Positions 6,070-18,907 of a DNA stretch of 64,000 nt are shown piece by piece. Each line of letters starts with the position of its first letter. Positions within the stretch are counted from its first letter, which is position 1. The stretch is from Streptomyces sp. NBC_01451. Lineage in GTDB: Bacteria > Actinomycetota > Actinomycetes > Streptomycetales > Streptomycetaceae. The stretch is from positions 9,672,001-9,736,000 of the forward strand of contig NZ_CP109479.1 in NCBI RefSeq assembly GCF_036227485.1. The letters run 5' to 3'. The notes under the pieces are model-generated. The model did no database searches and was not told the origin of the DNA. It saw only the letters and a list, made by a program, of their open reading frames with translations. Both the position numbers and the translations under genes were made by a program.

Positions 6070-6282
6070 TCAGTCGACGTAGTCGGCGATGAGGGCGGCG
6101 AATTCGTCCGGGGTGGCCAGCCGGATGCCCAGGGTTTCCGCCTTGGCGCGTTTGGACCCGGCGCCGTCGCCGGCGACGACCAGGCTGGTCTTCTTCGAGA
6201 CGCTGGAGGAGGAGCGGCCCCCGGCCCGTTCGACGAGTTCGTTCATCTGGTTGCGGCTGAGCTTCTCCAGCGCACCGGTCAT
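6070..6282 (-). pseudogene. ligA: 3' fragment of interrupted DNA ligase gene (BRCT part)
   Basis: 70 codons matching the C-terminal BRCT domain of NAD-dependent DNA ligase ([18 protein letters not shown], then [25 protein letters not shown]). It is the missing 3' end of the ligase at 16991-18907: joining the two flanks at GGAGCG reads [13 protein letters not shown], the normal family sequence. The first codon here was an internal Met in the intact gene. The inserted element places an AGGGAAGGAG stretch just ahead of this ATG, so a free BRCT peptide could be translated, but nothing shows that it is. Confidence 0.9.
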
Positions 6283-6312
6283 CGCTCCTTCCCTGATAAT
6301 TCTGTGAGTTCA
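6283..6312 (+). repeat. Left end of element: core plus terminal inverted repeat
   Basis: Core CGCTCC at 6283-6288, followed by TTCCCTGATAATTCTG and then GAGTTCA. Against the inward-read right end, the first seven bases are identical and the match continues in broken form (AA, TTC, CTG). Probably a recombinase binding arm. It lies 20 bp upstream of the AGGAGG site of the first recombinase gene, so it may also overlap that gene's promoter. Confidence 0.75.
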
Positions 6313-6332
6313 AGGGCTACAGGAGGCAGGGT

Positions 6333-7895
6333 ATGGACGAGTGGTGGGTGGTGTTCGTGCCGGATGAGGAGAGGTGGGGTTCGCTGCCGGAGGAGGGGGT
6401 GCTGGGGATTCAGGATCTGCCTGCGGCGGTGGCGGACATCGGGTTGCGGCCTGGCGACCCGATTTTTGTCCGGCCGGATTACACAGTGGACGCGGATCTG
6501 CTGACGTTCGTCCTGTCGCCCGCATTCCGGAAGCTGGAGCGCGAGAGCCGGCGGAACTACGCGACGGACATCCGGCTGCTGCTGAACTGGCTGTGGCGCC
6601 GGGGTCTCCCGTGGCGGCAGGCGACCGAGGGGGATCTGCAGGCCTACCAGGAGTTCCGGTGCAGGTCACCGCTCAATCCGGTCCGGGTGGGCGGCACGAA
6701 GTGGAACCGCGAGGCGGCAGCGCTGACCAAGCTCTACAAGTGGGGGAAAGTGTCGCCGCTGCCGGTGGACGCGAGCCGGGCGGAAGACCGGGCGGCGGAC
6801 GCTCGCAGTTCACGGGTGTCGTGGCTGACACCGCGGACGTGGGGCTTATGGCAGGACCTGGGGCTTCGGGGCCTGGCCCGGGACGGGTCACCGCTGCCAG
6901 GGTGGGACGCGCGGACGGAGCTGCGGAACACCTCGTTCGTGCAGTTCATGCTGAGCTCGGGGCTTCGCCGGCAGGAGTGCGGGGGGCTGCTGACATTCGA
7001 GGTGCCGTCGCAGGTGCTGCGTCACGGGCGGTACTGCCACGGCCGGGTCGCGAAGGCGCTGTCGCGGTCGAAGAGGGTTCGTACCTTCTACGCGTCGGTG
7101 GATTCGGTGCGGCAGGTCAGCTCCTACATGGAGTCGGAGCGGGCTTGGGCAGTGCAGCGGGCCAGGGAACAGGGCCGTTACGAGAAACTGTCGCAGCTGC
7201 GGCTGGTGACCGGGGTGACGCGGGAGCTGTCTCCGGTGGTGCACTGGGTGGACCGCGACGGGGTGGAGGGGCAGCGTGAGTTGGCCCTGCTGGACTGGCG
7301 TGAGCGGCAATGGCTGTTCACCGAGGGGCCGGAGGGTCCGGAGCCGGCGTGGTTGTGGTTGACCGAGCAGGGCCTGCCGATGCTTCCGGACCGCTGGAAC
7401 GCCGTGTTCAGGCTGGCGAACAAGCAGTGCGAGCGCACGCTGCTGACGCAGCAGGAACGGGAGGCGAAGCGCTGTCTGAGGCTGCCGGAGGTCCGCGGGA
7501 AGGTGCCGTACGCGACGCCTCACTCCACTCGGCATTCGTTCGCGCTCTACATGCTGATCACGCTGAACGAGCTGATGGACCGGAAGTACGGTCTGACGCC
7601 GGCCGAGCGGCGGGATTTCGCCCAGTTGTACGGGGACCCGTGGTGGCTGGTGAAGACACTGTTGGGGCACCGGGACGTGGAGACGACGCGGGAGCACTAC
7701 CTGACGCCGGTGACGCACCTACAGTTGGAATCGATCCTGGCGCTCGATGCGGATCGCGACGTGGGCGGGCGCAGGGACGACGAGGACGCGAGGGACATGG
7801 TCAGCCTGTTTGCGCAGCTGGCGAAGGCATCGGCGGGGATCCAGGACATCGACGTGCTGGTCGATGCACGGCCGGTCACACAGGAAGCGCTGTGA
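6333..7895 (+). CDS. Tyrosine recombinase 1 of the element (TnpA-like)
   Basis: 520 aa site-specific recombinase. Seen: an N-terminal SAM-like DNA-binding segment near residues 60-130 (SRRNYATDIRLLLNWLWRR); catalytic domain from about 170 with the first Arg in SSGLRRQECGG, the HxxR box in TPHSTRHSFALYM, and the C-terminal LLGHRDVETTREHY, which supplies the second His and the nucleophilic Tyr. The catalytic tetrad looks intact. ATG 6333 follows AGGAGG nine bases upstream. It overlaps the next gene by 4 bp (GTGA), starting a four-gene operon. In Tn554-type elements this protein performs strand exchange together with its partners. Confidence 0.9.
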   Translation: MDEWWVVFVPDEERWGSLPEEGVLGIQDLPAAVADIGLRPGDPIFVRPDYTVDADLLTFVLSPAFRKLERESRRNYATDIRLLLNWLWRRGLPWRQATEGDLQAYQEFRCRSPLNPVRVGGTKWNREAAALTKLYKWGKVSPLPVDASRAEDRAADARSSRVSWLTPRTWGLWQDLGLRGLARDGSPLPGWDARTELRNTSFVQFMLSSGLRRQECGGLLTFEVPSQVLRHGRYCHGRVAKALSRSKRVRTFYASVDSVRQVSSYMESERAWAVQRAREQGRYEKLSQLRLVTGVTRELSPVVHWVDRDGVEGQRELALLDWRERQWLFTEGPEGPEPAWLWLTEQGLPMLPDRWNAVFRLANKQCERTLLTQQEREAKRCLRLPEVRGKVPYATPHSTRHSFALYMLITLNELMDRKYGLTPAERRDFAQLYGDPWWLVKTLLGHRDVETTREHYLTPVTHLQLESILALDADRDVGGRRDDEDARDMVSLFAQLAKASAGIQDIDVLVDARPVTQEAL

Positions 7896-9633
7896 GCGGG
7901 CGCGGGCGGGGAAGCGGGCACCGGGCGGTCATGCCGCCGGCGGAGTTCCAGGCCACTCCACGGCTGGCCCCGGACGGGCTCGAGGTGACGGTGATCAACA
8001 AAGGCGGACATGCGCGGGTTTTCGACTTCGGTGAACTGAAGGTGCCGGTGCCCATGCAGCACTCGCTGGCGAGGACCTTCGCCGCCCAGTCCCGGACCTG
8101 GACCGGCCACGCTAGCGCGAATTCGTACTGGAACTCGGTTCTTGCATTCGACCGGTTTCTCGATGCGCAGGGTCACCCGGCTCAGGACTTGGACGAGTTG
8201 ACCTCGGCCACGCTGCGGCTATGGCGAAACAACCACAAGGAGACCGCCGGTGGCCGCAACTCCATGACACAGATGCGGACACTTCTGAAGCGGGACCGGC
8301 GGCTGGCGGTCGGCCTGGCCGCGGAGGAACTTGCCCGGCGTGTTCCGAGCCGAGGGCCGAGCAAACAGTCGTATGAGGGGCCGGAGCGGGAGCGGATGGT
8401 GTTGGCGGCGGAGCGGCAGTTCCGGGCTGCGCTGCTGCGGATCCGGGAGAACACGTTCCTACTGGAGCAATGGCAGGCAGCAGAGTTCACGGAGCGAAGC
8501 CGCGAGGGAAGGATCGGAGCGATCCTGGATCACCTGGCGAAGACCGGTGACGTCCCGCGCACGGTGCACGCCAGCGGCCAGTCATCGGTGACGAACACTG
8601 CTTTGCTGGGCGGGGCAGGAGCATTGGTGACGTGGGGCCGGCTCTTTCTGACGCGGCAGGAACTGACCGCGCTGGCAGTGATGTTGACCGACCGTTTCGC
8701 CTGGAACCTCTCGATGTTCGACCGCGTTCCCGTTCCGGTCAGGACGCCGTCCGCCGGAGAGGCGAGGACCATCACCTACCAGGTGCAGGTCGAGAAGCGG
8801 CGAGCCGGGGGCGGGCGGTGGTTCTCCATGGAGAACATCACCGACTCCGGCGCGGACTCACCGGGCCGACTGGTCACCAAGGCCCTGGAGGCCACCGCAC
8901 ACGGCCGCGCGCTGGCCGCCCGCCTGGCACCGGGCATCGATCTACTCATGGTCGCCCGCAGCCAGCAACCCAGCATGGCGGTCAACGACCTGGACCGGCC
9001 ACCCCGGGTCGGCCCCCTGGCCTTCGGAGTCTCCTACGACGACGGGAAGCGGTGGGGGCGGTCCCACGGGCTGGGCGGGTCCCCCTTCCAACGCAGCCGC
9101 CGCACCACTGTGACCCAGGAAGGCCGACCGCTCCAGCACAGCCGAGGCACGCACGAGAGCGTCTACGTGCTGCCCGACAAGAACGTCCAGAAGGCAGCCC
9201 GGAGCGTGATCGCAGCCGGTGCCGAGGAGGCCCTGCAGCGGGCCCGCGACACCACTTTCAAGGGTCGGCTGACCAACGCTGCCGACCCCGGCCACCAGGA
9301 GACCGCTACCACGGACTGCGCGGACGAGGAGACCAGCCCATGGCCCGCTCCGGCTGGGGGCTGCGGGGCGGACTTCCTGCTCTGTCTGGCCTGCCCGAAC
9401 TCGCGGGTTCACACCGGCCACCACCCACGCCTCGCCCACCTGCACCAGCAGTTGACGGCACTGCACTCCGCATGGCCTGAGGAGATGTGGCGCGGGCGCT
9501 GGGACAACCACCTGCAGCGGCTGGAGGACCTGCGCGACAAGGTCAGCTCCCTCGTCTGGGACGCCGCCCTGGCCCGTGTCACGGGCGCGGACCGCACCAT
9601 CGTCGATCTCCTGTTGAAGGGACAGCTCGCCCC

Positions 9634-9637
<4 letters not shown>
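7892..9637 (+). CDS. Recombinase-like protein 2 of the element
   Basis: 581 aa, second member of the recombinase trio, identified mainly by its place between two clear tyrosine recombinases with 4-bp overlaps on both sides. Seen: an N-terminal core-binding-like region around residues 60-130 (NSYWNSVLAFDRFLDAQ), a catalytic-like region at about 230-430 ending in QHSRGTHESVYVLPD, and a C-terminal segment with Cys/His spacing (CGADFLLCLACPNSRVHTGHH) that may bind zinc. The usual HxxR box and GH-Y ending are not obvious, so it may be structural or use a diverged active site. GTG 7892 has AGGAAG upstream; ATG 7931 is an alternative. Confidence 0.75.
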
Positions 9638-12197
<2,560 letters not shown>

Positions 12198-12389
12198 ATC
12201 GGAAGGCTTCGTGACAGGTGTCCTGGGCTCGGTGGCAACGAGATCCGGCATCGATCCGGGGGAAGTGTTGGAGAAAGTCGGTCGATGGTCCGCCCGCAGA
12301 TGGTACGGCGCTCCTCAGCGGACACAGCTCGATGCCATCAGACTACACAGACATTACCGCCAAGCTGGACGGACGCCACGAATGCGATC

Positions 12390-13595
12390 TTAGGGAGATG
12401 TCGTCCACTGATGAGCGGCTGGCCAAGTTATTGCGGCGGGAAGGTTCAGAAGCTCACCATCCCTGCCATCGCCGGAGGCGTACTTGACGACGGGATGCCC
12501 GTCTGAATCGGTACGGTCGAGGATGCCGTCGAACTGCACACAGCGCACCTCCCCCGCAGGCGACGTCACCGACGCGAACAAGGGAGTCAAGTCCGGGAAG
12601 GAGTCAGTTTCATCTACGAGCAGGATGGTCCCATCGACGATGGGGCGGTCGACGTGATGGGTGGCGGGTTGCGGAGTGGCTGTGCCGCGCACGAGAAGAG
12701 TATCGACTGTGTAGGCGGCGCCGTCGAAGCGCATACTCGTCGCTACCGTGAGGCCCAGTCTGAGGGTAGTGGTCGCACGGTGAGCGAAGCAGCGCAGCAA
12801 CCAGTCGATCGTGTCCCGGTCCGAGTTCTTGGGTGTTGCGCGGCCGTGGAAGATGTCGTTGCGGAGCTTCACCAGGGCGTCCACGGTGGTGCGAGAAGGA
12901 GTGTCCGGTGCGAGGGCTTGGACGGTCCGCTTGGCTGTTGCGTTGGTTTCGGCCTGTCGGCCCAGGGAAAAGGCGATATCACGCCACGTTCCCATGCTGG
13001 GCCTGTGCAGCTTACTCATAGCAAGGCCGGGGATGGGGTGAGGTCGAGAAGCGGCCATGCCGATACATGAGGCGAACCGCAGAATCGCCTCGATCGTATG
13101 GAGACCTTCGCTGACCTGAGTGTCAGTGGTCGTGGCTCGCAGGTAGCGTGCAAAGCGGTACGCAAGGGGAGTCGGAAGTTGTTCTGCCGCATTCTGGAGG
13201 GCTGCGGCGTTAGCTTCAGTGAGGAGCTTGGTACATGCGGGATGGAGCTGTTCTGCGGCGCTGTCCTTGTCAACCCAGTCAGCGGCGCCAAGACGCATAG
13301 CTTTAATAACCTGCGGTTTACCGCCTTCTCCAGACAGGACGAGCACCGGAATGTGGTTTTGAGCATTAGCTAGTTGCTCAAGGAGCCACAGGCCGCCCCA
13401 TTCTTCCGGGGGCATCTTCATGTCGACTAGCATCAGGTCGAAGGGTTGAGAACAAATCGCATCCCATGCTGCTTGGCCATCGGCCACATGCTGGATCTTG
13501 GCTCCAGCCGCCCGGAGAGAGCTACAGAATGTGCGTGCGACGTCGGGCTGGTCATCGGCGACGAGGATTCGGGTGCCAGACAGCGTGGTGATCAC
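12390..13595 (-). CDS. Response regulator: receiver plus HEPN-like domain
   Basis: 401 aa. Residues 8-125 are a receiver domain with acidic pair Asp14-Asp15, phospho-acceptor Asp58 (LMLVDMKMP) and Lys110. The usual DNA-binding output is absent. Residues about 140-285 are helical and carry LVKLRNDIFHGRA, an R-x4-H motif (Arg245, His250) as in HEPN RNases and RNA-binding HEPN domains, preceded by MGTWRDIAFSLGRQ. The last ~110 residues are unassigned. Its GTG overlaps the stop of the kinase gene by 4 bp, so the two are coupled. Codons such as ATT, AAA and GTT are more frequent than in flanking genes, suggesting foreign origin. Proposed role: effector released or activated by phosphorylation. Confidence 0.8.
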   Translation of the reverse strand: MITTLSGTRILVADDQPDVARTFCSSLRAAGAKIQHVADGQAAWDAICSQPFDLMLVDMKMPPEEWGGLWLLEQLANAQNHIPVLVLSGEGGKPQVIKAMRLGAADWVDKDSAAEQLHPACTKLLTEANAAALQNAAEQLPTPLAYRFARYLRATTTDTQVSEGLHTIEAILRFASCIGMAASRPHPIPGLAMSKLHRPSMGTWRDIAFSLGRQAETNATAKRTVQALAPDTPSRTTVDALVKLRNDIFHGRATPKNSDRDTIDWLLRCFAHRATTTLRLGLTVATSMRFDGAAYTVDTLLVRGTATPQPATHHVDRPIVDGTILLVDETDSFPDLTPLFASVTSPAGEVRCVQFDGILDRTDSDGHPVVKYASGDGRDGELLNLPAAITWPAAHQWTTSP

Positions 13596-16500
13596 GAAGT
13601 CTCCGTTAGTTCGGGTGTGGTCAGTGGAAGCTTGATTGTCCAGGTTGTGCCGACATCGGATGGGGTAGGAATCAGTTGGCCGCCCCGACGATGCAGCAGG
13701 GTCTGAGCGCCGAGGAGGCCCAGCCCGTTACCCCCTTGTTTAGTGCTATGAATTCGCGATCTACTCGTGAGGGCAATGGCGACGCTTGGGGCTAGCCCCG
13801 GCCCGTCGTCGGAAACCAAAATGACGGCTTCTTCCGCTGTGGCGGACCACGCGATCGTGAGGTAGCCGACGTTGTTCATCGCCTCGAGCGCGTTCTTAAT
13901 GAGGTTGTTGAGAACAGAGCGCAGAGCGGCTTCGCTGATGTCAACGTGTGCTTCCCTAGAAGCTTGCGGGCTGTTTATCGACACCGTCTTCGGGGTGTCG
14001 GCGAGGACGGCCCCGGTGAACGCGTGCAAGAAGGATCCCAGCTCCAAGGCATGGGAGGTTTGGTCGTCCCACAGCGATGCAGCCACTCGTAGCTGCTTGG
14101 CTTGGGCTTGGGCTTGGTCGAGGTGCTCGCTAGCCGTGACCTGATTTCGTAGCTTGCCCGTCCGCGTCGTGGCCGGCATTCCCTCGGCGACCCGCGCCGC
14201 GCTCACCTGATTCTTGATGTCATGGAGTAGATCGGCGATGGACTGGGCCAGAGGGTCGGCGGGCGGACGGAGCAAGAGGAAGGCCGCGGAGGTTAGCGGC
14301 CCGAACTTGGCTGGCAGGTCGGGATAGTTGATGACGACCTCCAGTCCGAACTGGGTGGCAGTCAGGCGCGTCGTGGGGGTGACCTGCGACCAGAGGGTGC
14401 AGAAACGCTCTAGCGCCCCATATCGGCTATTAGTATGCTCGATGCCGCCACTAATCCCCACCTTAAACGGGTGTGTGTCCAATGGGGTTACGGTGACCCG
14501 GGCCCCGTCGTGAAGAACCGCTTCGATCGCGGCGTCCAAGACGGCCCGTTCACGGCTGGCTATCACCGCATCACCCTGCAGGTGCTTCTCAGTAACCTCG
14601 AGATGGCCACGATGGAGAAGTTCCCAGTCAGATACCAACTCCCTCAATCGAACCGGTTCTGGGTCGCTACCGTAGACTCGATAGAGGGCACACAGAAGAG
14701 TGAGGTGCCTAAGAAGTGCTGCGTCGATCGCTGCGGGGTCCTCCACTTGATCGATAAGATTCAGGACGTCGGCGAGCTCGTCGTCTGGGGTGCGCGCAGC
14801 TGGAGCTTCTGAGGCTTCGTAAGCACGTCGAAATGTCTTCGTTAGTTCGCCGGCATCGATACTTCTACTGAAATTGCTTCCCAGAATTTCATCGGCATCG
14901 GCTGCCCATTTCGCCAGCACCTCGGGGGTGCCGGCCAAGTGCAGACCGAAGAATCGATGAGTACGCCACTTAACGGGGAAGCTGTCGCCGGTCTGAGCGA
15001 GGTGGGTCAAATGCTGGAGTACCAGGCGAGCCAGCTCTCGATCTTGTTGTGACGCCTCGGGCAGTTCCTGGGCTGGCCGAGGTTGCGCCAGCGCCTCGAA
15101 GACACGCAAAACACGGGCAGCAGCTTGCTGCCGCCCCTTCTTCCTTGATGTGCCCGAGTAATGTCCTTGCAGACGCAGCTCGGCACCCAAAGGCGCGCTT
15201 GTGATGGTAACGGTTGACCAGAAGCGTCGGTCATGGTCGGGTCCGATGACGACGTCATCAAAGCTCAGAGTGAGGAAAGCTGCGGAGCACCAGCGCTCGA
15301 GTGCCGAGGAGGGATCCAAGGCCGACGTATCAGCCACCAACGTGTGCCATGCCCCCTCCCACTCGGCAGGCCAAATAGGTCCAATCGTGTCCGGGTATTC
15401 CTTTGAGGCGTAGACAGCGCCGATGACAGCCTGGAAAGCGGTGGCGGCGATGTCTGTGCTGACTCCGACTTGCTCTTGGCCTGTACCTAACAGCAAGCCA
15501 GAGCTTATGCCGCTCCGCTCGAACGCCTCAGCGACCCAATCGTTGGGCACCGTCTTGACAGCCAGATCACTCGGAGGGGTTGAGAGTGCACGGAGGGCTT
15601 GCGTACGCGCACTCTCGAAGTTCAGCACCTGCGAACCCAAGAATGCCAAAGTCGTGTTGTCTCGCTGTCTCGCCCGAGTTATCCAGTAGCCCTTCTCGTA
15701 GCACCAGGAGGAGTGCATGAGAGCCTGGGACAAAAGCGGTCGAGCCGAGCCTGAAAGTCCGAAAAGTTTCTGTACGCGAGCCACAATTTGGCGGTGTTCA
15801 CTCTTCTCAGGTAGGTCACTCGTGGGCTGAACGGCGTTTGCAGGACTGGAGATCTGTGCACGCTGAACACTCGCCGGATGGTGCTGGACAAGGAAGTTGT
15901 AAGCGGCAAGGGAAGACGCGGCCCGCTTGCTTCTTCCGCAGCCTTCTGCGCAGCGTCCCCTTGAATCCTCAAGGGAAACCTTGTGCGTCAGTGCGTGGAC
16001 CGGGCCCGCTGCCGTCTCCCTGCGGCTGAGCACGTGCCCTTGTAGCTCTTTGCTGAGGATTTCATTCCAATTGGGATCAGCTCCGGAGGCTGCCAGGACA
16101 CTGCGTGTCAACTCGTGCAGCAACGATCGAGCAACGTCAGACTGGCCTGCCAAGTGCAGCACGCCAACTGTCTGAGTGAGTAGGGCGGCGGACACCTTCG
16201 GAGGCAGAATGGTCTCATCTACGAGCCCCACGCTGAGCAAGCACGACTGCCTTAGCCACGTCTGCCTGCCCGCCCAGTCAGCCAGTTTTGCGCGCGCTCC
16301 CGCTACGCGGTGGCTAAGCTTCCCTGCCGAATCTGAGGCGAAGGACGGGTAAGCGATCGACGCCATCTCCCGCGACACAAAGGTAGTACCCACGACTTCA
16401 AGTGAACTCAGGACGCCGACCGTCAGGTCCTTGTACTCTGCCTGATGTTCGTAGAGGTAGGAGCGGTGCATTAGTCCTACCGCGAGGGCACGCCGTATGT

Positions 16501-16633
16501 CGATGGATGGGCTGCGCAGGCCGGCCCCGGCTAGAGCTAGAACGGCTGGCGACTGCTCTGGAATCGGCTTAACACCACAATGCGTCAACACCCCGAGCGA
16601 CTCGCCGCCGCTACTTCCCGGCAAGCCAGACAT
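13592..16633 (-). CDS. Tandem dead RNase III/dsRBD-like sensor histidine kinase
   Basis: 1013 aa, no membrane segment. Module 1: RNase III-like at about 48-180 (MHRSYLYEH), then a dsRBD-like end (EGCGRSKRAASSLAAY, ~229-245). Module 2: RNase III-like at about 285-415 (MHSSWCYEK; LAFLGSQVLNFE; DIAATAFQAVIGAVYAS), then dsRBD at ~439-515 (DPSSALERW, GPDHDRRF, SRKKGRQQAAARVL). The catalytic acids of ERLEFLGD and of the later FEALIGA are replaced, so cleavage is unlikely; dsRNA binding is plausible. After a helical linker comes a kinase core with His804 (DLLHDIKNQ), Asn914 (NLIKNALEAM), DDGPGLA and GGNGLGLLG. ATG 16633 follows GGGGGAGG closely; an in-frame TTG at 16687 is an alternative start. Confidence 0.8.
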   Translation of the reverse strand: MSGLPGSSGGESLGVLTHCGVKPIPEQSPAVLALAGAGLRSPSIDIRRALAVGLMHRSYLYEHQAEYKDLTVGVLSSLEVVGTTFVSREMASIAYPSFASDSAGKLSHRVAGARAKLADWAGRQTWLRQSCLLSVGLVDETILPPKVSAALLTQTVGVLHLAGQSDVARSLLHELTRSVLAASGADPNWNEILSKELQGHVLSRRETAAGPVHALTHKVSLEDSRGRCAEGCGRSKRAASSLAAYNFLVQHHPASVQRAQISSPANAVQPTSDLPEKSEHRQIVARVQKLFGLSGSARPLLSQALMHSSWCYEKGYWITRARQRDNTTLAFLGSQVLNFESARTQALRALSTPPSDLAVKTVPNDWVAEAFERSGISSGLLLGTGQEQVGVSTDIAATAFQAVIGAVYASKEYPDTIGPIWPAEWEGAWHTLVADTSALDPSSALERWCSAAFLTLSFDDVVIGPDHDRRFWSTVTITSAPLGAELRLQGHYSGTSRKKGRQQAAARVLRVFEALAQPRPAQELPEASQQDRELARLVLQHLTHLAQTGDSFPVKWRTHRFFGLHLAGTPEVLAKWAADADEILGSNFSRSIDAGELTKTFRRAYEASEAPAARTPDDELADVLNLIDQVEDPAAIDAALLRHLTLLCALYRVYGSDPEPVRLRELVSDWELLHRGHLEVTEKHLQGDAVIASRERAVLDAAIEAVLHDGARVTVTPLDTHPFKVGISGGIEHTNSRYGALERFCTLWSQVTPTTRLTATQFGLEVVINYPDLPAKFGPLTSAAFLLLRPPADPLAQSIADLLHDIKNQVSAARVAEGMPATTRTGKLRNQVTASEHLDQAQAQAKQLRVAASLWDDQTSHALELGSFLHAFTGAVLADTPKTVSINSPQASREAHVDISEAALRSVLNNLIKNALEAMNNVGYLTIAWSATAEEAVILVSDDGPGLAPSVAIALTSRSRIHSTKQGGNGLGLLGAQTLLHRRGGQLIPTPSDVGTTWTIKLPLTTPELTETS

Positions 16634-16990
16634 GTGCCTCCCCCTGGCGTCGCACGGCACCGGGCCGCACGTCGACACACCGATCAACGCACTCTAGCCG
16701 CTAACGGTCGCGGATGCGCCGATCGCCCCCAACCCGGCTAGAGTGGCCGCTAATTGACGGATAGACACCCCTTCGCATCTCCTTGCGCCCAGGGCTTCCG
16801 CGTACACGCACAGCGTCGTTGCCCGCGCCAGACGCCATGTGGCCGAGGAGGCGGCCCGACGGGTGGCGACCTTTTAGCGCACATGCCGCATTTCTACGAC
16901 CTTCCCGCCCGGCCATCGGTCAACGCGCGCGTGGCGAGCACGTAGGCGTCCGGAACAGTATTGAGCCGTGCCCTGACAACTATGCTCCCG
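16634..16990. other. Right-end noncoding region of element
   Basis: About 357 bp between the kinase start and the truncated ligase stop; no gene supported. It should contain the cargo promoter: on the minus strand TAGAGT lies just before TTG 16687 and could be a -10 box, with no clear -35. CCCTGACAA at 16971-16979 resembles the terminal repeat sequence and is inverted relative to TTGACAGGG at 17022-17030, suggesting a second recombinase binding site. Confidence 0.45.
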
Positions 16991-18907
16991 TCACGCAGCC
17001 GCTCTGACTGAACAGAAGGACTTGACAGGGAACGCTCCGGTCACCACGACCGACATCCCGGTCAGCGGCCCACCCGTCGGCTCGGCGTCCTCGGCACTGC
17101 CACCGGCACCGTCGGCCCCGGGAGCGGGCGGGGTGGCGCCGGGCTCGGCCATGTTCACCCCGGTCGCGGCGAGTTCGTCGATGAGGGGGGCGAGTTCGGC
17201 CAGTTCGGCGACGATGGAAGGGGCCTTCTCGGTACCGATGCCCTCCACCTGCCGCATCGCGTCGGCGTCGGCGGCGCGGATGTTGTCCATGGTGGCGAAG
17301 TGCCGGGCGATACGGCGGGACATCGAACGTCCGGTGCCGCGTACCCCGAGCGCGCACAGCACCCGCGACAGCGGCTGCCGCTTCGCCGCGACGATCGCCG
17401 CGAGGAGATTGTCCGTACTCGTCTCACCCATCCGTTCCAGGCCCAGCAACTGCTCCCGTGTGAGGGCGAACAGGCCGGCGAGATCCTTCACCAGGCCGGC
17501 GTCGACGAGCTGGACGACGCGGGTGTGGCCGAGGCCTTCGATGTCGAGCTGGTCGCGCCCGGCGGCGTAGGAGAGCGCGGCCACCAGATGGCAGTTACGG
17601 CCGTTCTCGCACCGCCAGCGCTGCTCGCTCGTGTCGATGCCGGCTCCGCAGCGGGGACACACCTCGGGGAAGACGATGGGCTGCTCGTCCCCGGTGCGCA
17701 GGTGGGCGACAGGGGCTTCGACGCGGGGGATGACGTCGCCGGCGCGATGAACCATGACGTGATCGCCCAGACGCAGGTCACGGCGGGTGATGTCGCCGGG
17801 ATTGTGGAGCGTCGCGTAGGTGATGGTGGCGCCGTCGATCTCGACCGGTTCCAGCACGCCGCGCGGCGCGATGATCCCGGTGCGGCCCACGTTCCACTCC
17901 ACCGCCAGCAGCCGGGTGATCTTCTCCACGGCGGGGAGTTTGTAGGCGATCGCCCAGCGAGGGGCCCTCGACCCCGATCCGGCGGTCCGCTGATCGGCGG
18001 CGAGGTCGGCCTTGATGACGATCCCGTCGATCCCGAACGGCAACTCCGCCCGCAGCGCGGCGATTTCCTTCACGCGGGTCAGCACCTCCTCGACGGTGCC
18101 GACGGTGACGCCGGGCACGGCGGTGGTCGCTGTGGTGTTCACCCCGAGGTCGCCGGCCAGCGTCATCAGGTCGCTGTGCGCGAGCTCGCCCAGGCGCACG
18201 GTCAGCGCCGACCCGGTGCCGGGCGTGGCGAGCAGTCCGTACCCGAAGAACGTCATCGGCACGGTGTACGGGCGGTCCTTGGCGCGCAGGGTGCCTGCCG
18301 AGGCGCCGCGCGGGTTCGCGAACGGCGGTCCGCCGTGCGCCGTCCGCGCGGTGTTCGCGTACTCGAACTGGGCGTTGGTCATGAGGACTTCGCCGCGCAC
18401 TTCCACCGTCAACGGTTCGGCGAGCTCGGTCGGCAGGCCTTCGACGGTGCCGATGGCGTGCGAGACGTCCTCCCCGGCCGTTCCGTCGCCGCGCGTGACC
18501 AGCTGGGTGAGGCGGCCCCGGGTGTAACGGGCGGCGATCGCGAGACCGTCGAGCTTCGGTTCGACACTGAAGCGCGTGACGTCGCGGTCGATACGCCGGG
18601 CCAGCGACGTCGTCCAGGCGGTGAACTCCTCGGGGGAGAACACGTTGTCCAGGCTCAGCATCGCGGTCGTGTGCGGGACATCCCCGTCGACGGCGCCGCC
18701 GGCGACCTTCCCGGTCGGCGACTCGGGCAGCACCTCCTCGGGATGACCGGCCTCCCACGCCGCGATACCGCGCACCAGCCGGTCGTAGGCGTCGTCGTCC
18801 AGCACGGAGGTGCCGCCCGTGTAGTAGGCGGCCGACGCCTTTGTCGCGTCCTCGACCGCCTGCGCGTAGGCGGCGGCGTCCACGATCACTGCAGCTGGTG
18901 TTGTCAT
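16991..18907 (-). pseudogene. ligA: NAD-dependent DNA ligase, C-terminus lost to insertion
   Basis: 638 codons. It seals DNA nicks using NAD. Seen: Ia domain ([17 protein letters not shown]), adenylation motif with Lys118 ([10 protein letters not shown]), OB fold, zinc finger CPRC...C...C around residue 420, a helix-hairpin-helix region ([17 protein letters not shown]) and the first strand of BRCT (MSVVVTGA). There the frame enters the transposon and ends after 13 foreign residues. The rest of BRCT is at 6070-6282. The nick-sealing core is complete, so the product may keep activity. It is probably a second ligase, the housekeeping copy lying elsewhere. ATG 18907 chosen; ATG 18916 possible. 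Confidence 0.9.
17009..17038 (-). repeat. Right end of element: core plus terminal inverted repeat
   Basis: Read inward on the minus strand: core GGAGCG, then TTCCCTGTCAAGTCC and TTCTGTTCA. It pairs with the left end at 6283-6312. The ligase frame passes through the core into this end and stops at 16991-16993. Confidence 0.75.

Follow-up and report, generated by a model that had tools for sequence, protein, structure and literature searches.

In OAS-RNase L and in the type III CRISPR proteins Csm6/Csx1, RNA sensing leads to the activation of a HEPN/KEN RNase, and the Detocs system has a receiver-effector layout. According to the available part of PMC11249213, Detocs comprises three genes, and its best-described type contains a PNP that cleaves ATP. 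The accessible sections of PMC3710099 describe a HEPN-RNase III-double-stranded RNA-binding domain (dsRBD) fusion in the cyanobacterium Lyngbya, which is the closest published neighbour that we found to the locus described here. This locus, a pair of genes for a sensor histidine kinase and its regulator, lies in a 64,000-nucleotide stretch of Streptomyces sp. NBC_01451 (contig NZ_CP109479.1, positions 9,672,001 to 9,736,000; this whole stretch is hereafter called the window, and its numbering is used throughout). The pair is probably an RNA-triggered abortive-infection system, made up of a kinase fused to dead RNase III-dsRBD modules together with a regulator whose output is likely a HEPN RNase, a reading in which we place moderate confidence. 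Its basis in the sequence is the domain content, the disappearance of most metal-binding residues, an intact phosphorelay, an invariant R-N-x3-H motif and the fact that the genes are conserved in their pairing and their overlap; we infer an immune role and a double-stranded RNA (dsRNA) trigger for the pair. The two genes are:

13592-16633, minus strand: kinase gene (1013 aa, ATG at 16633), sensor histidine kinase
12390-13595, minus strand: regulator gene (401 aa, GTG start), receiver, HEPN-like domain and C-terminal beta domain

Both open reading frames (ORFs) are present at 12390-16633 as the original prediction had described them, coupled by a 4-bp overlap in which the kinase stop codon and the regulator GTG share the sequence GTGA. 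The N-terminal half of the kinase, the sensor, contains four domains:

16091-16504, minus strand: RNase III-like module A, degenerate (residues 44-181; profile matches, structure model)
15881-16069, minus strand: dsRBD 1 (residues 189-251; Pfam, profile matches, structure model)
15338-15802, minus strand: RNase III-like module B, degenerate (residues 278-432; Q401 at the E117 position)
15089-15313, minus strand: dsRBD 2 (residues 441-515; structure model; hhalign of dsRBD 1 against dsRBD 2, E 1.6e-8)

Two RNase III-like modules, each with a dsRBD-like end, had been predicted, and Pfam, profile matches and the structure model agree on them. Pfam recognised Ribonucleas_3_3 in the window kinase at residues 300-411 (42.4 bits, cut-off 35) and dsrm at residues 210-248 (21.2 bits, slightly below the cut-off of 23), and among 17 family members (E up to 0.1) Ribonucleas_3_3 was found in all 17, dsrm in 15 (best E 5.9e-11) and HATPase_c in 16. 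The NCBIfam model RNaseIII scored 70 bits over two stretches of the kinase and did not reach its full-length cut-off of 166. A profile of the kinase family matched the RNase III structure of M. tuberculosis over profile positions 50-244 (E 3.7e-13) and that of T. maritima over positions 273-446 (E 5.5e-11), as well as the dsRBDs of TARBP2 and others; run on the strain's own genome, it retrieved the host RNase III gene. Homology between modules A and B is supported by pairwise hhalign (E 3.4e-12), and the structure model shows alpha-beta-beta-beta-alpha dsRBDs at residues 189-251 and 441-515. RNase III and dsRBD folds came out of both the structure prediction and the profile searches of the sensor half, which had been suggested as a check.

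Each module thus has the RNase III fold followed by a dsRBD; the metal-binding residues E41, D45, D114 and E117 of RNase III are not retained as a set. Aligned with the host RNase III, the positions of E38, E41, D45, D114 and E117 are occupied by S, E, T, A and T in module A of the window and by T, A, S, T and Q in module B, so that the predicted replacement of the acidic residues in both modules holds for module B (five of five changed) but is incomplete in module A, where four of five are changed and E41 is kept. Every row of a 17-row kinase alignment carries Q at the E117 position of module B, where the D45 position holds S in 16 rows and A in one; in module A no row has E at the E117 position, and an invariant Q154 stands one place further on. 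In neither module does any of the 17 rows retain the full set of four metal-binding residues. The first motif of module A is missing from P0005, which leaves 16 rows there; alignment A3 was built without P0006 (short) and P0008 (frame broken near its end), and P0003 and P0013, the window's own proteins, were dropped as rows. As reported in the available portion of PMC6121014, the E117Q change in E. coli RNase III abolishes Mg-dependent cleavage and leaves dsRNA binding uncompromised, while with the equivalent change in S. meliloti RNase III one site was still cut in the presence of manganese. Because of the lost metal-binding residues and the E117Q precedent, the modules most likely do not cut, and they may have retained RNA binding. 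An active double RNase III was considered as well and ruled out, the metal-binding residues being missing or incomplete in both modules.

The structure model packs both RNase III-like modules against each other inside a single chain, in the manner of Dicer and Drosha, and the tandem would form a single RNA-binding clamp that no longer cuts. This Dicer-like tandem was missed by the original prediction, as were a family of stand-alone sensors and the GInt-like nature of the carrier element (see below). The remainder of the kinase consists of:

14264-15076, minus strand: middle domain (residues 520-790), common to the kinases and the stand-alone sensors, no family found
14069-14254, minus strand: dimerisation and phospho-acceptor helices (residues 794-855; H804-D-I-K-N-Q)
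13622-14041, minus strand: HATPase_c catalytic domain (residues 865-1004; Pfam 49.5 bits, cut-off 26.4)

The predicted kinase core motifs HDIKN (with H804), NALEAM, DDGPGLA and GGNGLGLLG were found where they had been placed. H804, D805, K807, N808 and Q809 do not vary across the 17 aligned rows, and H804, N910, N914, D942, G944, G946, G968, G970 and G972 were kept in all of 12 kinase-regulator pairs compared, as expected of a histidine kinase. These 12 pairs comprise the window, two plasmid loci and others, including L008, whose kinase may miss its first residues at a contig edge; L006, with a kinase cut by the contig end, and the divergent L045 stand outside the set. The secondary structure of the middle domain hints at a degenerate kinase-like core. 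An hhalign comparison of this domain with the active kinase core gave a probability of 1.8, and a PDB profile search returned a single match with an E of 0.85.

The regulator comprises three domains:

13239-13574, minus strand: receiver domain (residues 8-119; D14, D15, D58, S88, K110)
12762-13178, minus strand: HEPN-like domain (residues 140-278; E169-x3-R173, R245-N246-x3-H250; alignment, motifs, structure model)
12393-12755, minus strand: C-terminal beta-rich domain (residues 281-401; structure model)

Its structure model has a mean predicted local distance difference test score (pLDDT) of 90.0 and a predicted template modelling score (pTM) of 0.91. D14, D15, D58 and K110, on which the receiver had been called intact, were confirmed at these positions and were kept, together with S88, in all 12 pairs, in line with a response regulator. 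The available text of PMC3710099 gives as HEPN hallmarks an Rx4-6H motif that closes helix 3 and in which the R is followed by N, D or H, and an Ex3[KR] motif providing an acidic residue in helix 2. Both were found: R245 is followed by the polar N246 and by H250, and E169 and R173 lie within the modelled helix 157-182, while R245 lies in helix 232-249, H250 just past it and the next helix at 257-277. R245, N246, H250, E169 and R173 are invariant in a 32-row regulator alignment with a mean column identity of 57%, in which some rows are near-identical to each other (alignment A4 was made without P0017, P0018, P0038 (partial) and the L008 regulator). A Pfam search over the 32 regulators (E up to 0.5) gave weak matches, to HEPN_RiboL-PSP in 22, HEPN_MAE_28990 in seven and HEPN_Swt1 in two of them (best E 9.4e-4). 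These sequence features suggest that the output of the regulator is likely a HEPN RNase. In the C-terminal beta-rich domain an FDG motif and a W are conserved (F355, D356, G357 and W397, invariant in the 32 rows).

A protein search yielded 10 kinase matches and 26 regulator matches, the query being counted in each, and a contig scan with one peptide pattern yielded 10 loci, in each of which the kinase gene lies immediately upstream of the regulator. Every one of the 12 pairs shows the 4-bp overlap as well as a GGAG ahead of the regulator start, and the identities of kinases and regulators correlate across them (Mantel r 0.967), as shared descent alone would also produce. Of 392 Streptomyces genomes searched, 6 have the regulator (E up to 1e-40), as do 3 of 394 genomes drawn from the class (E up to 1e-25); both counts include the strain's own genome. 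A divergent pair from another actinobacterial family (L045:767-5105) has the same apparent architecture: tblastn gave identities of 43% for the receiver, 27% for the HEPN part, 36% for the kinase core and 27% over 94 residues for the first dsRBD part, and inspection of the translation by eye showed module B, an RNDLAH motif and Q at the E117 place. Most homologous pairs adjoin transposase, integrase or plasmid genes, which ties the pair clearly to mobile DNA. A connection with defence genes is no more than suggested: an AbiJ_NTD3-protein kinase fusion (L005:11475-13838; Pfam 178 bits; PADLOC matches to PD-T4-6-type kinases) adjoins one pair on the opposite strand, a NACHT-like protein precedes the pair in L009 (25.7 bits, cut-off 26.7), and the plasmid locus L031 has a TPR-CHAT protein upstream of the pair and recombinase genes downstream. 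Neighbours were scanned as 71 proteins, namely 66 of 89 ORFs of 120 aa or more and five from L031; the other 23 ORFs were left out by eye, most of them resembling spurious antisense calls, the AbiJ-kinase fusion was scanned apart, and the L031 recombinases are not among the 71. With Pfam (E up to 1e-8), DDE_Tnp_1 was found in seven and CHAT in two of these proteins, along with more transposase and integrase-core families (among the 25 of 63 families listed). The neighbourhood survey called for by the original prediction therefore bore out the link to mobile DNA, but direct defence neighbours were few (the AbiJ-kinase, the NACHT-like protein and two CHAT proteins). An Rfam search gave no match.

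A search of plasmids revealed relatives that span the RNase III/dsRBD half and the middle domain only and end ahead of the kinase core (Rhodococcus plasmid H6 was left out, its match coordinates being the same as those of Rhodococcus plasmid H5). The stand-alone sensors placed on their loci are:

L042:7829-10891: stand-alone sensor
L043:7988-10960: stand-alone sensor
L035:6452-9277: stand-alone sensor
L036:6197-9028: stand-alone sensor
L033:6392-9322: stand-alone sensor

A profile of four stand-alone sensors retrieved 72 proteins, mostly from Streptomyces and about 930-980 residues long, many of which are annotated as 'putative dsRNA-binding protein'; among 121 Streptomyces genomes the stand-alone form was found in three, and two further matches were the kinase. 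Q401 is conserved in the four aligned plasmid stand-alone forms. Defence-type genes were present beside four of the seven stand-alone loci inspected: the L043 sensor lies amid genes for TmtA, a class II prokaryotic Argonaute (pAgo), Aga and pPIWI_RE, the L042 sensor lies ahead of a class I pAgo with Aga and near a UvrD helicase, the L036 sensor lies about 2.5 kb ahead of DUF1819, DUF1788 and brxC genes, the first two of which we take to be BREX genes, and the L035 sensor directly precedes DNA methyltransferase and helicase genes, read here as type III restriction-modification (R-M). The defence-island link is firmer for these stand-alone relatives than for the pair itself. As this sensor also stands without the kinase next to Argonaute and BREX genes and to genes of R-M type, the sensor half is probably a pattern-recognition part that can be reused. 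Tentatively, the pair could be a bacterial Dicer-shaped alarm, in which a dead tandem RNase III senses foreign dsRNA and a phosphorelay unleashes a HEPN RNase, with the same module used as a stand-alone RNA sensor beside Argonautes and BREX.

The pair is carried by an island with the following features:

6283-6288, unstranded: left 6-bp direct repeat CGCTCC, island junction with the 3' part of ligA
17033-17038, unstranded: right 6-bp direct repeat CGCTCC, island junction with the 5' part of ligA
6333-7895, plus strand: ginA-like tyrosine recombinase, 520 aa (NCBIfam 31.8 bits, E 8e-8, below the cut-off of 279)
7892-9637, plus strand: ginB-like gene, 4-bp overlap with the ginA-like gene, named by position only
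9634-11790, plus strand: ginC-like gene, 4-bp overlap with the ginB-like gene, named by position only
11787-12197, plus strand: ginD-like small protein, 136 aa, 4-bp overlap with the ginC-like gene, named by position and size only

In the four-gene operon (6333-12197), each gene overlaps the next by 4 bp, and only the first protein has a recombinase match; the ginB-like and ginC-like proteins had no Pfam or NCBIfam match. The kinase-regulator pair sits between the end of this operon and the interrupted 5' part of an NAD-dependent ligase gene, the 5' piece of which lies at 17033-18900 and the 3' piece, a BRCT tail, at 6079-6288 on the operon side. Joined at the 6-bp core, the flanks read ...VVVTGAMTGALEKLSRNQ..., and the intact ligase of G011 reads ...VVVTGAMTGPLEKLSRNQ..., which is the same reading. 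Short inverted ends (TTCCCTG) are visible on the island, and the cargo, at 60.6% GC, is poorer in GC than the flanks (about 71%). The ligase gene is interrupted by the island in its BRCT end; a second ligA-type gene, with a full-length open frame of 736 residues, is present in the genome. GInt islands, as outlined in the available part of PMC5385486, carry ginABCD at one end, followed by cargo, and insert site-specifically with short direct repeats. The carrier at 6283-17038 looks like a tyrosine-recombinase island of this type that is inserted in ligA and likely mobile, sharing with GInt the four genes at one end, the cargo after them and the site-specific insertion with short direct repeats, although the repeat here is a 6-bp core and the four proteins are putative Gin counterparts judged by layout. 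The two-gene cassette is the sole cargo of this GInt-like island; it had been called the only cargo of a transposon, which was right as to the cargo, but the carrier appears to be a tyrosine-recombinase island rather than a DDE transposon. The position as sole cargo and the toxin-antitoxin-like layout of two tightly overlapping genes would fit an addiction or maintenance module of the island, in which a HEPN toxin is checked by the unphosphorylated receiver and punishes loss of the element. We regard this as very unlikely, as addiction would call for nothing nearly as large as a 1013-residue kinase bearing an RNA-binding-type sensor and the pair occurs on different carriers (plasmids L031 and L032 and contigs rich in insertion sequences, such as L004).

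For an RNA-triggered abortive-infection system, the following course can be proposed. Phage-derived double-stranded or structured RNA would be held by the dead clamp, which would release the kinase; H804 would be phosphorylated and hand the phosphate to D58, and the phosphorylated receiver would pair or free the HEPN domains, whose R245/H250 site might then cleave cellular or phage RNA, so that growth would stop before phage release. Each step beyond the presence of RNA-binding-type domains is one that we infer.

Several observations weigh against this proposal. On the sensor side, E41 and D45 of module A each persist in 4 of the 16 rows covering these positions, module B keeps D114 in 6 of 17 rows, the kinase model has a pTM of 0.52 with an uncertain domain arrangement, and a two-module chain favours Dicer in a fold comparison of this kind because bacterial RNase III has one catalytic domain per chain. 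On the effector side, the HEPN-like domain of the window regulator scored 11.8 bits against a curated Pfam cut-off of 28.4, which is the threshold of one family model and does not define the superfamily; a PDB sequence search with the profile of this domain returned no HEPN entry, and fold searches with the regulator were topped by receivers and hence have no bearing on HEPN either way. The RNDIFH motif (R245, H250) predicted for this output was found in place. With a score below the cut-off and no structural match seen, the domain might instead be an RNA-binding or dimerisation output through which the system sequesters RNA; we consider this improbable, since the five invariant regulator residues are of types that the accessible text of PMC3710099 ties to catalysis in HEPN RNases.

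The genomic context adds further points on the same side. PADLOC 2.0.0 has no family for the kinase and gave weak matches for the regulator in its receiver region (best E 7e-4), the L009 NACHT-like and L031 CHAT proteins had no PADLOC match at E up to 1e-4, and the 71 neighbour proteins matched seven PADLOC families (E up to 1e-10) with one protein each, a count obtained without matched control loci. Of the recognisable neighbours of the pair, transposases are the most frequent among the families listed, phage records and viral contigs yielded no relative, and three of the seven stand-alone loci (L033, L034, L044) have no recognised defence gene in annotation or ORF calls, their neighbours not having been scanned with PADLOC. 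The prevalence of transposases, the few PADLOC matches and the lack of phage relatives, together with the rarity of the cassette and the presence of sensor relatives on plasmids, would suit a stress or plasmid-interference regulator that senses structured host or plasmid RNA and whose HEPN domain tunes RNA turnover without cell death. Such a role appears unlikely to us, as HEPN domains with an intact Rx4-6H are predicted RNases, many of them in conflict systems (PMC3710099, available part), and defence-type genes flank the stand-alone sensors at four of seven loci. As regards the domain reading behind the abortive-infection proposal, the sequence and structure tests made turned up none of the outcomes that the original prediction had named as contradicting it, namely sensor folds unrelated to RNase III or dsRBD, a regulator output other than HEPN, or homologous pairs confined to housekeeping loci.

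A literature search found no title or abstract describing this combination of sensor, signal and effector, which is weak evidence of absence as most subscription papers and bioRxiv preprints were outside its coverage. How infection is recognised is an open question for many defence systems; if the proposal is true, it names a concrete and testable trigger, namely double-stranded or structured RNA, with HEPN cleavage as a concrete output. Each sensor module is homologous in sequence to bacterial RNase III and, like it, has an RNase III domain followed by a dsRBD, but the modules here are arranged in tandem, catalytically degenerate and apparently used for sensing. With Dicer, Drosha and DCL3 the sensor shares two RNase III domains per chain, a dsRBD and the same predicted arrangement; in contrast to them, it is bacterial, is fused to a histidine kinase, has lost most metal-binding residues and has a dsRBD for each module, with no helicase or PAZ among its Pfam matches. 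If true, this would be a bacterial Dicer-like, single-chain tandem RNase III used for recognition only, which bears on the origin of RNA-based pattern recognition. The pair resembles Detocs in being a two-component pathway that ends in a (here predicted) toxic enzyme, but consists of two genes and combines a sensor of tandem RNase III type with a HEPN-like effector; membership in Detocs was ruled out on the two-gene cassette, the HEPN-like output and the lack of a match to a PNP family. Defensive phosphorelays would, if the proposal is true, be extended to RNA sensing. In the Lyngbya fusion an RNase III/dsRBD part is likewise linked to a HEPN part, but there both nucleases are predicted to be active in one chain, whereas here two proteins, a phosphorelay and a degenerate RNase III are involved. 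Finally, like OAS-RNase L and Csm6/Csx1, the pair is proposed to couple RNA sensing to a HEPN/KEN RNase, with phosphotransfer in place of their nucleotide second messenger, and would, if this is true, represent a phosphorelay counterpart of OAS-RNase L in bacteria.
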